Shown piece after piece: positions 1,988 through 11,589 of a DNA stretch of 49,279 bases. Both the position numbers and the translations under genes were made by a program. A model generated the notes under the pieces. The model worked only from the letters and a program-made list of their open reading frames with translations, was not told where the DNA came from and searched no databases. The DNA comes from a virus: positions 1-49,279 of IMG/VR virus record IMGVR_UViG_3300011013_000021. One strand, written 5' to 3'. The stretch's first letter is position 1. Every line of letters begins with the position of its first letter.

Positions 1988-2176
1988 ATGTTCTTCGTCA
2001 TCCTCAACGGTCAACAGCACAGCGCACACTTCTCCAAGGAGGAGGCCGACTCGGTTGCGTTCGATCTTTCGGTCGATCTCAACTACGAAGGTCACCCAGA
2101 TGTGTGTGGCCACGCCAAGATATCCGTTCTCTCGTTCTCCGAGATGATGGAGTCTCCAGTTGAGATGGTCATCTGA
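1988..2176 (+). CDS. Small unknown protein, 62 aa
   Basis: The 62-aa product is acidic and soluble-looking. No family is recognised. Its ATG lies eight bases after an AAGG Shine-Dalgarno-like sequence and directly downstream of family B leader copy 1. It is the first gene of a chain of tiny cistrons separated by structured elements; family A copy 1 follows its stop. Confidence 0.65.
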   Translation: MFFVILNGQQHSAHFSKEEADSVAFDLSVDLNYEGHPDVCGHAKISVLSFSEMMESPVEMVI

Positions 2177-2190
2177 CCAGGCGTGATGCC

Positions 2191-2242
2191 GGGGGATCGA
2201 ATCCCCCACTCAATCATTGCCCAAAGCGGAGATGGGCACCGC
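2191..2242 (+). promoter_or_regulatory. Family A structured intercistronic element, copy 1
   Basis: A hairpin GGGGG/CCCCC (2191-2195, 2203-2207) carries a seven-base T-loop-like loop ATCGAAT. Ten bases later come two interleaved helices: TGCCCA (2218-2223) with TGGGCA (2233-2238), and GCGG (2226-2229) with CCGC (2239-2242). They may form a pseudoknot or be two mutually exclusive hairpins. An AGGAG ribosome site (2249-2253) and the ATG at 2261 follow. Copies 2 and 3 repeat this architecture. Confidence 0.7.
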
Positions 2243-2260
2243 ACTACCAGGAGTTACCCA

Positions 2261-2413
2261 ATGGGTATTCGTCAGAAGCTTGCAATTGGTTTGGCTATTG
2301 CTTCCAAAGCAATAGCTGAAGATCAAAGCAAGGAAAAGTTCCAGGTGCAAATGGACCAGGCTCGCCACAAGCTAGCGAACTGGATTGCACCCAAAGCCAA
2401 GCTGATCCGTTAA
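2261..2413 (+). CDS. Small unknown protein, 50 aa
   Basis: I chose the ATG at 2261 because AGGAG lies eight bases upstream; an earlier in-frame ATG at 2183 falls inside the structured element and would encode it. The 50-aa product is basic and helical. Residues 4-17 are an Ala/Ile-rich helix and the C-terminus is Lys-rich. No family is recognised. It sits between family A copies 1 and 2. Confidence 0.65.
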   Translation: MGIRQKLAIGLAIASKAIAEDQSKEKFQVQMDQARHKLANWIAPKAKLIR

Positions 2414-2420
2414 AGCGGGT

Positions 2421-2473
2421 TGGGAGGTGCAAACCCTCCCACAGTTATTGCCTACAGCGGAGATAGGCACCGC
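2421..2473 (+). promoter_or_regulatory. Family A structured intercistronic element, copy 2
   Basis: Hairpin GGGAGG/CCTCCC (2422-2427, 2435-2440, plus T2421-A2441) has the seven-base loop TGCAAAC. The interleaved helices are TGCCTA (2449-2454) with TAGGCA (2464-2469), and GCGG (2457-2460) with CCGC (2470-2473). Relative to copies 1 and 3, a C-G pair has become T-A (2453/2465), a compensatory change that supports pairing in RNA. AGGAG (2479-2483) and a GTG start (2491) follow. Confidence 0.7.
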
Positions 2474-2490
2474 ACAACAGGAGAACACCT

Positions 2491-2754
2491 GTGGCCGACT
2501 ACTACAACTCAGCTCTCTACGCTACATCTCCTGATGCCATGGCAGACATGGAGATGGGCCTTCCTACCAGGGGGATGCGAGGAGAGGAAGTCTTTCAACA
2601 GATCAAGTATCTGATGGAAGATGGTAATTCTCAAGTTCTTGGCAGAGACCAGGCTTTGCAACTTGCGGTCTGGGCTCTCAAAATTGCTGGGAAGTCTGAT
2701 CTCAAGCATTCAGTTCTTGCGGAGCTTGTAGAGCTTCCTGAGAATTACGGCTGA
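2491..2754 (+). CDS. Small unknown protein, 87 aa (GTG start)
   Basis: The GTG at 2491 is preceded by AGGAG at 2479-2483, the same spacing as in the gene after family A copy 1, so I prefer it to the overlapping frame at 2420. The 87-aa product is acidic and predicted helical, with Met-rich and Leu-rich segments. No domain is recognised. Family A copy 3 follows its stop. Confidence 0.65.
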   Translation: MADYYNSALYATSPDAMADMEMGLPTRGMRGEEVFQQIKYLMEDGNSQVLGRDQALQLAVWALKIAGKSDLKHSVLAELVELPENYG

Positions 2755-2770
2755 CCAGTAAAGGCTGGCA

Positions 2771-2823
2771 CCAGGGGTTCAATGCCCCTGGCAGTTATTG
2801 CCCAAAGCGGAGATGGGCACCGC
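2771..2823 (+). promoter_or_regulatory. Family A structured intercistronic element, copy 3
   Basis: Hairpin CCAGGGG/CCCCTGG (2771-2777, 2785-2791) carries loop TTCAATG, a perfect T-loop pattern. Interleaved helices TGCCCA/TGGGCA (2799-2804, 2814-2819) and GCGG/CCGC (2807-2810, 2820-2823) match copy 1. After the conserved GCACAAC tail this copy diverges and lacks the AGGAG; the next ATG is 40 bases on, at 2863. CCAG/CTGG (2755-2758, 2765-2768) could form an extra small hairpin. Confidence 0.7.
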
Positions 2824-3247: not shown

Positions 3248-3293
3248 AGGGGGCTGCGCATCCTATAAACGCAGACAACTCAACCCTACGGAG
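3248..3293 (+). promoter_or_regulatory. Family B structured leader, copy 2
   Basis: Inner stem CTGCG (3254-3258) pairs with CGCAG (3270-3274) around loop CATCCTATAAA. Outer AGGG (3248-3251) pairs with CCCT (3284-3287). A CGGAG ribosome site (3289-3293) ends the element and the ATG is at 3302. The loop TCC could pair with GGA of the ribosome site. It is nearly identical to copy 3, 735 bases downstream. Confidence 0.65.
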
Positions 3294-3982: not shown

Positions 3983-4028
3983 AGGGGGCTGCGCATCCTA
4001 TAAACGCAGGCAACACAACCCTACGGAG
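3983..4028 (+). promoter_or_regulatory. Family B structured leader, copy 3
   Basis: Inner stem CTGCG/CGCAG (3989-3993, 4005-4009) has loop CATCCTATAAA. Outer AGGG (3983-3986) pairs with CCCT (4019-4022). CGGAG (4024-4028) serves the ATG at 4035. Sequence and spacing match copy 2 almost base for base, which points to recent duplication or strong constraint. Confidence 0.65.
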
Positions 4029-4304: not shown

Positions 4305-4473
4305 CGATGGTCAGATCAAAGTATGTCTGACTGAGGACCAGGTAACTGCATGCTGCTACGTCAGTAGCATGCACCTGGTAGATGAGAAAGAGAAGCAATT
4401 GCAACAATCAATTGCTAGACAGAAGAACAAGATGGGGGCTGCGAGGATCGAACTCGCCTCAGCCGAATTATGA
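4276..4473 (+). CDS. Small ORF, 65 aa, runs into antisense tRNA
   Basis: The first 52 or so codons look like a real acidic protein (DDGQIKVCLTEDQ near the start). The last 13 codons, from about 4435, are simply the antisense of the tRNA-Met gene. That arrangement is often an annotation artefact, but no earlier stop exists, so if the gene is real its C-terminus is made from tRNA antisense. A near-palindrome around GCATGC lies inside it (about 4348-4373). Confidence 0.45.
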   Translation: MSKLNLETLDDGQIKVCLTEDQVTACCYVSSMHLVDEKEKQLQQSIARQKNKMGAARIELASAEL

Positions 4474-4505
4474 GTTCGGTGCATTCACCAGATTGCTAAG
4501 CCCCC
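4433..4505 (-). tRNA. tRNA-Met/Ile2 (anticodon CAT)
   Basis: On the minus strand the 73-base cloverleaf has acceptor GGGGGCT (4505-4499) pairing with AGCCCCC (4440-4434) and discriminator A at 4433. The anticodon stem is CCGAA/TTCGG with loop CTCATAA, and the T-arm is GCGAG/CTCGC with loop TTCGATC. The anticodon stem lacks the three G-C pairs of initiator tRNA, so it is an elongator tRNA-Met, or tRNA-Ile if the C34 is lysidinylated. It is the only minus-strand tRNA in a plus-strand region. Confidence 0.9.
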
Positions 4506-9555: not shown

Positions 9556-9789
9556 ATGTCTTACGTCATTGCCTGTTGGAAACAAGATAAACCTTTTGGT
9601 ATTTCTTGTTGTCCTGAAACGTCCAGCTTCAAACTAATTCCATTAGATTCAGATAGAGCATTCAATGATGTGTACTCTCATCCTTACAGGGCTGGTGCGC
9701 AACAGATTTTAAATTGGATAAATCAAAATGACAAAAAATTATCCAGTCAGAAACTCTCTATTCAAGATGAGTGCCGATTCAGAAAATGA
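9556..9789 (+). CDS. Unknown protein, 77 aa
   Basis: The ATG at 9556 (MSYVIACWK) is chosen because the earlier in-frame start at 9505 lies upstream of the terminator hairpin. The 77-aa product looks like a small alpha/beta protein. Its 3' end overlaps the exonuclease gene by about 60 bases. No family is recognised. Confidence 0.55.
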   Translation: MSYVIACWKQDKPFGISCCPETSSFKLIPLDSDRAFNDVYSHPYRAGAQQILNWINQNDKKLSSQKLSIQDECRFRK

Positions 9790-10411
9790 ATCGTGGTTGG
9801 TGTTTGACTTAGAGTCTGATGGTCTTTATGATAAAGTCACTGAAACATTCTGCATTGTTATACATGATATCTGCAGAAAACAAACTTTTAATTACGGGCC
9901 TGACAGCATTGACGATGCTCTTGGTCATCTGGCTAGAGGTGATGTTTTAATAGGGCACAACATAATTTTTTATGATTTACCTGTACTAAAAAAACTTTAT
10001 GGTTTTGAATTTTATGGACAAGTCATCGACACACTCGTCTGCACAAGACTCATCTGGCCCAAAGAAAAGTTATTCGATCTCGACTCTGAAATTTATTCCG
10101 ACAAGGTTCCCGCTGGTCTTAAGGGCGGTGCTAGTCTCAAAGCATGGGGTTACCGTTTATCCGATCATAAAATCGAATTCAAAGACTTTACTCATTACTC
10201 AGATGAGATGTTGGAATACTGCAAGCAAGACGTTGCAGTTACTACAAAATTATTTAAACTTATTCAAAGAGAAACTTATCCGCAATCCGCTCTTAAGTTG
10301 GAGCATGAGTTTGCTAATCAATCAATAAACAAATTGTTTCTGGTATTCCATTTGACATTGATCAATGCATTGATCTTGTGGATGTGCTTAGAACAAAACA
10401 AAAAGCGTTAG
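9728..10411 (+). CDS. DNA polymerase I-type 3'-5' exonuclease part, 227 aa
   Basis: This is the proofreading exonuclease domain of a T7-like family A DNA polymerase. Visible motifs are Exo I (VFDLESDGL), Exo II (GHNIIFYDLPVL) and Exo III (YCKQDVAVT). After about residue 198 the sequence stops resembling a polymerase, and the matching continuation is found one frame back in the next ORF. It is therefore the N-terminal half of a split polymerase. An internal ATG at 9767 is an alternative start. Confidence 0.85.
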   Translation: MTKNYPVRNSLFKMSADSENESWLVFDLESDGLYDKVTETFCIVIHDICRKQTFNYGPDSIDDALGHLARGDVLIGHNIIFYDLPVLKKLYGFEFYGQVIDTLVCTRLIWPKEKLFDLDSEIYSDKVPAGLKGGASLKAWGYRLSDHKIEFKDFTHYSDEMLEYCKQDVAVTTKLFKLIQRETYPQSALKLEHEFANQSINKLFLVFHLTLINALILWMCLEQNKKR

Positions 10412-11589
10412 AAACAAAACTCAAAGAAGTATTTCCACCTATTGAACATCGTGAATGGTTTACTCCCAAAGTAAACAATAAGAATCGTGGCTATGTAAAA
10501 GGTGTACCGTTTGAAAAGATAAGGATTGAACCATTCAATCCAGGTTCAAGACAGCAAGTTGTTCAACGATTGAAGGATAAATACAACTGGGAGCCACCAA
10601 AGAAAACAGATAAAGGTAATCCAATATTGAATGATGAAGTATTAGAACAACTTGATTTTCCAGAAGCGAAGGTCTTAGCTGAGTACATGTTAATCCAAAA
10701 ACGATTGGGTCAAATTGCAGATGGATCTAATGCTTGGCTTAAGCTTGTCAATAATGATGACGGTCGTATGCATGGTGATGTTATCACTAATGGTTGCATT
10801 ACTGGCCGTTGTGCTCACCGTAATCCCAACACGGGCCAGGTTCCAGCTGGTTATTCCCCTTATGGAAAAGAGTGTAGATCTTTATTCCATGCACCAGAAG
10901 GATGGGATTTGATTGGTATCGATGCCAAAGCACTTGAGCTGAGATGTCTTGCTGGTTATCTTGCAATTTGGGATGAAGGTGAATATGGAAGATTGGTTAC
11001 TGATCCTGACACAGATATTCATACTTATAACCAAGAACAGTTTGGTGTAGAAACCAGGGACATTTCTAAACGTTTGTTGTATGGAATGTTGTACGGGTGT
11101 GGCTATCTAAAAGCAGGAACCATCATTGATCCTAACTGTAAAGATGAAAATAAACTCAAAGAACTGGGTCGTAATGCAATCAATGGTTTTATGAAGGGCG
11201 TTCCAGCATTGAAGAAACTAAAAGATCAGATTGAAGAAACAATACTAGAACGAAACTATTTGATTGGATTAGACCGCAGGATTTTATATTGTCGTTCAGC
11301 GTTCAAAGGTTTAAATGTTTTGTTGCAATCAGCTGGTGCAATCTTAATGAAACAAGTGGTGATCAATACTCATCACAACATGAATAAGATTGGCTTGGAG
11401 TATGGAAAAGACTGGGAACAAATGCTAATGGTTCATGATGAAATACAAATTGCATGTGATCCCAAGCACACTGAAGTTGTAAGGGAACAAGCAATGCTTG
11501 CATTTCCAGAAGCTCAAGAATTTTTTGGATTTAGATGTTTGATTGAAGGTGATTCTCGTGTAGGATTCACCTGGCAAGAAACACACTAG
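10378..11589 (+). CDS. DNA polymerase I-type polymerase part, 403 aa
   Basis: This carries the palm and fingers of a T7-like family A polymerase. Motif A is GIDAKALELRCL, motif B is KRLLYGMLYG and motif C is MVHDEIQ, with the catalytic Asp residues present. The listed start is a GTG at 10378; the same frame is open from 10318 and encodes further polymerase-like residues (QIVSGIPFDID). Exonuclease and polymerase lie in frames offset by one base. Either the enzyme is genuinely in two chains, there is a programmed shift, or one base is missing in the A run near 10331. The stop codon's last base is the first base of tRNA-Arg. Confidence 0.9.
   Translation: MDVLRTKQKALETKLKEVFPPIEHREWFTPKVNNKNRGYVKGVPFEKIRIEPFNPGSRQQVVQRLKDKYNWEPPKKTDKGNPILNDEVLEQLDFPEAKVLAEYMLIQKRLGQIADGSNAWLKLVNNDDGRMHGDVITNGCITGRCAHRNPNTGQVPAGYSPYGKECRSLFHAPEGWDLIGIDAKALELRCLAGYLAIWDEGEYGRLVTDPDTDIHTYNQEQFGVETRDISKRLLYGMLYGCGYLKAGTIIDPNCKDENKLKELGRNAINGFMKGVPALKKLKDQIEETILERNYLIGLDRRILYCRSAFKGLNVLLQSAGAILMKQVVINTHHNMNKIGLEYGKDWEQMLMVHDEIQIACDPKHTEVVREQAMLAFPEAQEFFGFRCLIEGDSRVGFTWQETH

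Follow-up and report, generated by a model that had tools for sequence, protein, structure and literature searches.

The window analysed here comprises an entire IMG/VR virus record (49,279 bases). The primase it encodes shares 60% identity, over 98% of the length, with that of Synechococcus phage S-EIV1, so we regard the virus as an S-EIV1-like cyanophage. Three tiny genes of 50 to 87 codons, which match no PHROG or Pfam family, surround three copies of an RNA element (2159-2242, 2400-2473 and 2749-2823). These copies belong to one RNA family that is absent from Rfam and whose other members occur in IMG/VR contigs and in the isolate S-EIV1.

Read from 5' to 3', each unit has the upstream gene's stop codon, then an outer stem and a D-like arm, and next a T arm whose loop has seven bases (NNCRA) and the 3' strand of the outer stem, which abuts the T stem. 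A linker (AUU or AU in most copies) leads to a 3' module, and a spacer separates this from the start codon. Some copies have a pseudoknot as their 3' module and others a plain hairpin. The initial annotation had recognised three T-loop hairpins followed by TGCCY/RGGCA stems interleaved with GCGG/CCGC, and all of this is found in each of the three copies, whose cores start at 2217, 2448 and 2798, with zero bases between the two 3' strands. Its coordinates begin too late: the outer stem and the D-like arm lie 5' of each hairpin, and the true 5' end of copy 1 is near 2159 instead of 2191. Two features lay beyond its view, namely the upstream stop codon inside the element and the status of the pseudoknot as one among several interchangeable 3' modules. 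The parts of the three copies and the genes around them are listed in Table 1.

Table 1. Genes and parts of the three element copies in the window (S1, S2, pseudoknot helices; L1, L2, loops).
Feature	Position	Strand	Remarks
Gene 1	1988..2176	+	62 aa; stop in copy 1
Copy 1, tRNA-like domain	2159..2214	+	from sequence; identical layout in related locus L026, 6+7 bp
Copy 1, outer stem	2159-2164 / 2209-2214	+	GTTGAG / CTCAAT
Copy 1, extra hairpin	2166-2179	+	contains gene 1 stop TGA, 2174-2176
Copy 1, D-like hairpin	2180-2190	+	GGC-GTGAT-GCC
Copy 1, T arm	2191-2207	+	GGGGG-ATCGAAT-CCCCC
Copy 1, covariance model R1 match	2164-2242	+	E 3.2e-6
Copy 1, pseudoknot	2218..2242	+	from sequence; S1 and S2 covariation
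Copy 1, S1	2218-2222 / 2234-2238	+	TGCCC / GGGCA; L1 AAA
Copy 1, S2	2226-2229 / 2239-2242	+	GCGG / CCGC; L2 AGAT
Gene 2	2261..2413	+	50 aa; stop in copy 2
Copy 2, tRNA-like domain	2400..2446	+	commonest type
Copy 2, outer stem	2400-2404 / 2442-2446	+	AGCTG / CAGTT; 5 bp
Copy 2, D-like arm	within 2405-2420	+	CCG-TTAAAG-CGG; gene 2 stop TAA, 2411-2413, in D loop
Copy 2, T arm	2421-2427 / 2435-2441	+	TGGGAGG / CCTCCCA, 7 bp; T-loop TGCAAAC, 2428-2434
Copy 2, covariance model R1 match	2400-2473	+	E 9.1e-20
Copy 2, pseudoknot	2449..2473	+	S1 TGCCT/AGGCA, L1 ACA, S2 GCGG/CCGC, L2 AGAT
Gene 3	2491..2754	+	87 aa; stop in copy 3
Copy 3, tRNA-like domain	2749..2796	+	from sequence and covariance model
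Copy 3, outer stem	2749-2753 / 2792-2796	+	GGCTG / CAGTT; contains gene 3 stop TGA, 2752-2754
Copy 3, D-like arm		+	CCAG..CTGG
Copy 3, T arm	2771-2777 / 2785-2791	+	CCAGGGG / CCCCTGG; T-loop TTCAATG, 2778-2784
Copy 3, covariance model R1 match	2749-2823	+	E 2.6e-13
Copy 3, pseudoknot	2799..2823	+	S1 TGCCC/GGGCA, L1 AAA, S2 GCGG/CCGC

The ATG of gene 2 (at 2261) lies 18 nt past the end of copy 1, and the GTG of gene 3 (at 2491) 17 nt past that of copy 2. Copy 3 is atypical, as a start codon is missing at the normal distance and the next ATG, at 2863, is 39 nt on. Behind the pseudoknot of copy 2 the Shine-Dalgarno (SD) sequence and the start codon form a small hairpin (2475-2493), which is also present in most SD-bearing relatives with varying sequence (CACGG..CCGTG, CATGG..CCATG, ACAGG..CCTGT); it is a possible second translation control.

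Searching the window against Rfam 15 at the gathering score and at E up to 5 produced no match to the element, in agreement with the initial annotation, which could place it in no known family. A tRNA cloverleaf (RF00005) is found at none of the copies by Rfam, even at E up to 5, or by ARAGORN; the window holds three real tRNAs, at 4433, 7387 and 11589. The resemblance to tRNA that had been noticed is nevertheless stronger than first described: besides the seven-base NNCRA T-loop there is a D-like arm, and the T stem and the acceptor-like outer stem are contiguous on their 3' side and make up about 12 bp together. The common type of the domain has neither an anticodon arm nor CCA, and its outer stem opens mostly with A-U, where G-C is usual in tRNA. 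Among 155 copies with a 12-bp helix, 120 have ATT directly after it, A first and then U. What did not stand is the comparison with the position of viral tRNA-like ends, since the element is intercistronic and followed by a start codon at a fixed distance.

A strict pattern of the pseudoknot core was found in 33 IMG/VR stretches and a looser one in at least 119. In 1.25 Mb of DNA from related phages, a geometric search for a T-loop with an 11-13 bp helix gave 269 unique matches, while block-shuffled DNA gave 9 and 12; 110 loci of related virus DNA have at least one such match, and T[GA]CC comes after 238 of the 269. The covariance model detects one to six copies per record in 24 phage records, in one short cluster each. 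The T-loop reads NNCNA in 152 of 172 non-redundant pseudoknot copies, and the loops listed are nearly all NNC[AG]A. The T stem and the outer stem sum to 12 bp in 86 of 152 copies and to 11-13 bp in 133, while the split between them varies (7+5, 6+6, 5+7, 4+8).

The initial annotation had also argued for selection on RNA structure, and the alignments bear this out strongly. In 58 gap-free copies of the commonest type, which belong to the pseudoknot class, 98.8% of the cells form standard pairs (mean of 84.3% after shuffling, 34-48% when the partners are slid) and 15 of the 24 pairs change on both sides; for 38 copies of the plain-hairpin class the figures are 99.0% of cells paired and 15 of 22 pairs changed on both sides. 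Slid partners pair in 34-51% across both alignments, and the D-like arm covaries in both. As judged from these alignments, the helices covary far beyond both controls. The folding energy of single copies is weak evidence (z about -1.8 per window copy, copy 1 having been folded without its outer 5' strand).

The exact core occurs at only two sites in 84,980 species genomes, both chance-like and without a tRNA-like domain upstream, so that a host origin was rejected; as far as searched, the element is phage-restricted. We found no description of such an element in the open-access papers searched.

Both helices of the pseudoknot are conserved. In the 58 copies S1 pairs in 99.7% and S2 in 100% of the cells, and two pairs of each have changed on both sides. 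S2 was tested by patterns that left it open except that the common base was excluded, and by a script blind to S2; the types found were GCGG/CCGC, GCAG/CTGC, GTGG/CCAC, GAGG/CCTC and GGGG/CCCC. One copy in context (locus L126) pairs three of the four S2 positions, and the other unpaired matches were only partly inspected singly. The two interleaved, covarying helices of a classical H-type pseudoknot are thus present, but the loop L3 that should cross S1 has zero length, which makes the classical stack impossible, and simultaneous helices need another stacking order. On an A-form estimate, the 3-nt L1 would span about 27 Angstrom if the 9 bp stack with the 3' strands continuous; in such a model, a simultaneous fold of S1 and S2 is tight and strained, yet conceivable. 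A two-state switch had been preferred in the initial annotation for this junction. Essentially all copies keep both helices, with L2 = AGAT and L3 = 0 in the standard form, and a single compact fold accounts for such strict conservation of helices and L2 more readily than a pair of alternative states would. Two further pairings were rejected. The CCGC strand of the pseudoknot shows no covariation with the D-like arm, and the ACTGA loop of the hairpins fails to track changes in its supposed partner, the outer-stem strand CAGT.

The element is modular. Several types of its tRNA-like domain can be told apart by their D region, and only some have a second arm. The 3' module is a pseudoknot in 141 cases and a hairpin in 97, the hairpins being TGCCAC-AATCCC-GTGGCA (38 IMG/VR stretches for this type alone), GCCACNC-ACTGA-GNGTGGC and variants of these. 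A T arm lies directly upstream of the 3' modules in 61 of 65, 148 of 158 and 33 of 36 cases, and AUU is kept, unpaired, in the hairpin class. The hairpins are not intrinsic terminators, as the U run is missing on their 3' side, and GGAG of the core was rejected as a hidden Shine-Dalgarno sequence, because GCAG variants destroy it and yet keep the pairing.

The fold is anchored to the reading frames on both sides. Of the copies with an open upstream ORF of at least 30 codons, 106 of 121 with a pseudoknot have the upstream stop no more than 8 nt away from the 5' end of the outer helix, as do 195 of 232 tRNA-like domains overall. A TAA stop in place of TGA tends to be accompanied by a C to T change in the partner of its middle base (columns 5-43); this G-C to A-U change is found in six rows, counted in the fixed-geometry columns of both alignments. 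The start codon is 14-18 nt past the pseudoknot in 145 of 152 copies, alike with SD (100) and without SD (52); hairpins are followed at a more variable distance, about 10-21 nt, and in their class 87 of the 91 starts have no SD. The tRNA-like domain is essentially confined to internal junctions of the tiny-gene cluster.

A separate small pseudoknot, family B, is found in the window at 1934-1960, 3248-3274 and 3983-4009 and has 68 copies across the loci analysed, with the pattern [C/A]GG-GGG-CTGCG-CAT-CC[G/T]-NNNNA-CGCAG. Its two flanking bases, one ahead of the G run and the other behind CATCC, co-vary perfectly (C,G in 44 copies; A,T in 24; no mixed ones). Its start codon is mostly 20-30 nt downstream, and it often stands behind a promoter-like sequence with no close upstream gene; judging from this placement, primary 5' ends may also begin with structure. 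The promoter-like stretch (class C, about 1726-1775 in the window and upstream of family B in many loci) reads GTATAGAAAAAAAGAAAGG; in relatives GGGTNNATAAGTNTAN comes after it, immediately ahead of the family B G run, and its A-tract in the window is about 200 bases upstream of the first family B copy. A tRNA-Met on the minus strand (4433-4505) has a 3' end that reads GGGGGCTGCG on the plus strand, the same ten bases that open family B, which may be a coincidence.

Other loci combine or replace these parts. At L001, about 455-525, family B stands in place of the tRNA-like domain directly before the pseudoknot of the present element. At L057, about 650-753, and at a matching site of L089, a large structured-looking module replaces the domain before the pseudoknot; its ends in L057 are complementary (ACCACCCCT / AGGGTGGGG), and this module has no Rfam match. 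Elsewhere in the window, DNA polymerase I (9728-11589) seems to be divided between two overlapping reading frames of 227 and 403 aa, of which the second matches the polymerase domain; the apparent split is either real or a sequencing error.

Structure, anatomy and selection of the element are well supported, and from the sequences we infer a mechanism. The reading that we favour, tentatively and at somewhat under even chances, is that of a modular gene-boundary element in the mRNA, which would split the polycistronic transcript. An enzyme would treat the tRNA-like fold as it does the T-arm/acceptor half of a pre-tRNA, and the cut would fall in the AUU linker, made either by RNase Z after the A at the discriminator place or by RNase E in the exposed AUU. 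The upstream mRNA would keep its stop codon and a compact tRNA-like 3' end, the stop being near the 5' end of the helix and the cut on its 3' side; the downstream mRNA would receive the pseudoknot or hairpin at its extreme 5' end, just before the start codon. A ribosome that terminates at a stop within the fold must melt that fold, so processing would compete with upstream translation.

Several observations point to this splitting of the transcript. RNase P measures a T/acceptor stack of 12 bp and cleaves other RNAs that present it (PMC4919913), and the sum of T and outer stem is constant here despite the varying split. RNase Z cleaves behind the discriminator, and CC at that place inhibits it (PMC7479834); A and then UU after the helix, without CC, would suit it. 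AUU is conserved though unpaired in the hairpin class, the 3' module nearly always has a T arm directly upstream, and it is interchangeable, as expected if it merely provides a stable 5' end. Family B, often placed behind promoter-like sequence, would fit as well, if primary 5' ends too begin with a structure. On the other hand, some RNase Z enzymes (archaeal) require a mature 5' end (PMC7479834) and here the upstream gene is attached, the outer stem opens mostly with A-U, and the tight spacing of the start codon is explained as well or better by a role in translation. RNase P was rejected as the main cutter, as a cut on the 5' side would strip the upstream stop codon. The more specific proposal, that host tRNA-processing enzymes cut a tRNA mimic with a built-in stop at each junction, so that every gene would obtain a separate mRNA, tRNA-like at the 3' end and headed by a pseudoknot or hairpin, is a bolder one and somewhat less likely.

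The main rival, nearly as likely as the splitting of the transcript and itself held at about one chance in three, is a translation element, in which the tRNA-like fold and the pseudoknot or hairpin recruit or hold ribosomes for the downstream gene (as an enhancer, IRES-like, or in termination-reinitiation). It stands so high because tRNA-like leaders have a shown ability to raise translation: tRNA-like domains placed in cis before a gene do so 2-6.3 fold, and the yjdF fold binds ribosomes (PMC9142559). The start distance after the pseudoknot, the same with and without SD, the SD-less starts of the hairpin class and the stop codon built into the element all agree with this role. SD-less starts are, however, common in these phages anyway (SD in about 22% of long ORFs, a crude control), a terminating ribosome would unfold the tRNA-like domain, the 3' module varies freely and the distance from domain to start differs between the classes; moreover, first genes would benefit too, yet the domain is restricted to internal junctions. 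Interchangeable 3' modules and this restriction fit a boundary at which the transcript is split better than a precise ribosome-docking fold.

An operator role, in which a protein of phage or host origin, or a ligand, would bind the element and repress or time translation of the tiny genes with the interleaved helices as a switch, seems improbable. Conserved hairpin loops (ACTGA/ACCGA; AATCCC) on varying stems, the SD present in over half of the pseudoknot copies and often held in a small hairpin with the start codon, and the several copies per genome, which could be co-regulated, would suit such a binder; but three different 3' modules in one niche would demand several binders, the start is clear of the pseudoknot and hence unmasked, and both interleaved helices are always kept. 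Least probable by far is a DNA-level repeat whose shared boundary sequences serve homologous recombination that shuffles the tiny genes, RNA structure being incidental: the same modules before different genes and different modules before similar genes do give a mosaic look, and recombination may be a side effect, but as the sole explanation it is already contradicted by the covariation in the alignments, with slid partners pairing so poorly, and the fixed places of stop and start codons in the fold also speak against it.

Tiny-gene junctions of DNA phages carry a widespread, strongly conserved RNA family with T-arm/acceptor-half geometry and without an Rfam entry. In mitochondrial transcripts tRNAs serve as punctuation, a tRNA-like stack within a longer RNA; if the element is a processing signal, bacterial phages would use tRNA mimicry for mRNA punctuation in the same way, and should it act in translation instead, it would represent a natural cis-tRNA enhancer whose variants number in the hundreds. 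Both readings are directly testable, because the isolate S-EIV1 and its host, Synechococcus PCCC-A2c, exist. The intercistronic RNase III sites of T7 are structures between early phage genes that give the mRNAs defined, folded ends; those are long hairpins, whereas here a T-loop domain is joined to a pseudoknot or hairpin. Plant virus tRNA-like structures and the dicistrovirus IGR IRES share with the element tRNA mimicry with pseudoknots in viral RNA, but here the acceptor-like helix is an ordinary nested stem with the pseudoknot 3' of it, and the setting is gene junctions of a DNA phage before AUG or GUG starts.

Structured cis elements precede genes in cyanophages, namely wcaG (RF01761), manA (RF01745) and PhotoRC-II (RF01717) (PMC2864571). 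The window has no Rfam match to any of them, and manA and wcaG were described for T4-like phages and metabolic genes, not for tiny-gene junctions. Substrates of RNase P and RNase Z of the MALAT1/mascRNA type likewise contain a T-arm/acceptor-like stack in a long transcript (PMC4919913); in comparison, the present element, a candidate substrate only, is an incomplete tRNA without CCA and has a stop codon in its helix. The yjdF riboswitch of Firmicutes (RF01764) shares a tRNA-like fold in an mRNA leader, with equivalents of T-loop and D-loop, upstream of the start codon (PMC9142559). In contrast to yjdF, the common type here is without an anticodon arm and matches no Rfam family, and the element is intercistronic, holds the upstream stop within it, continues into a pseudoknot or hairpin and occurs several times per genome, in phages.
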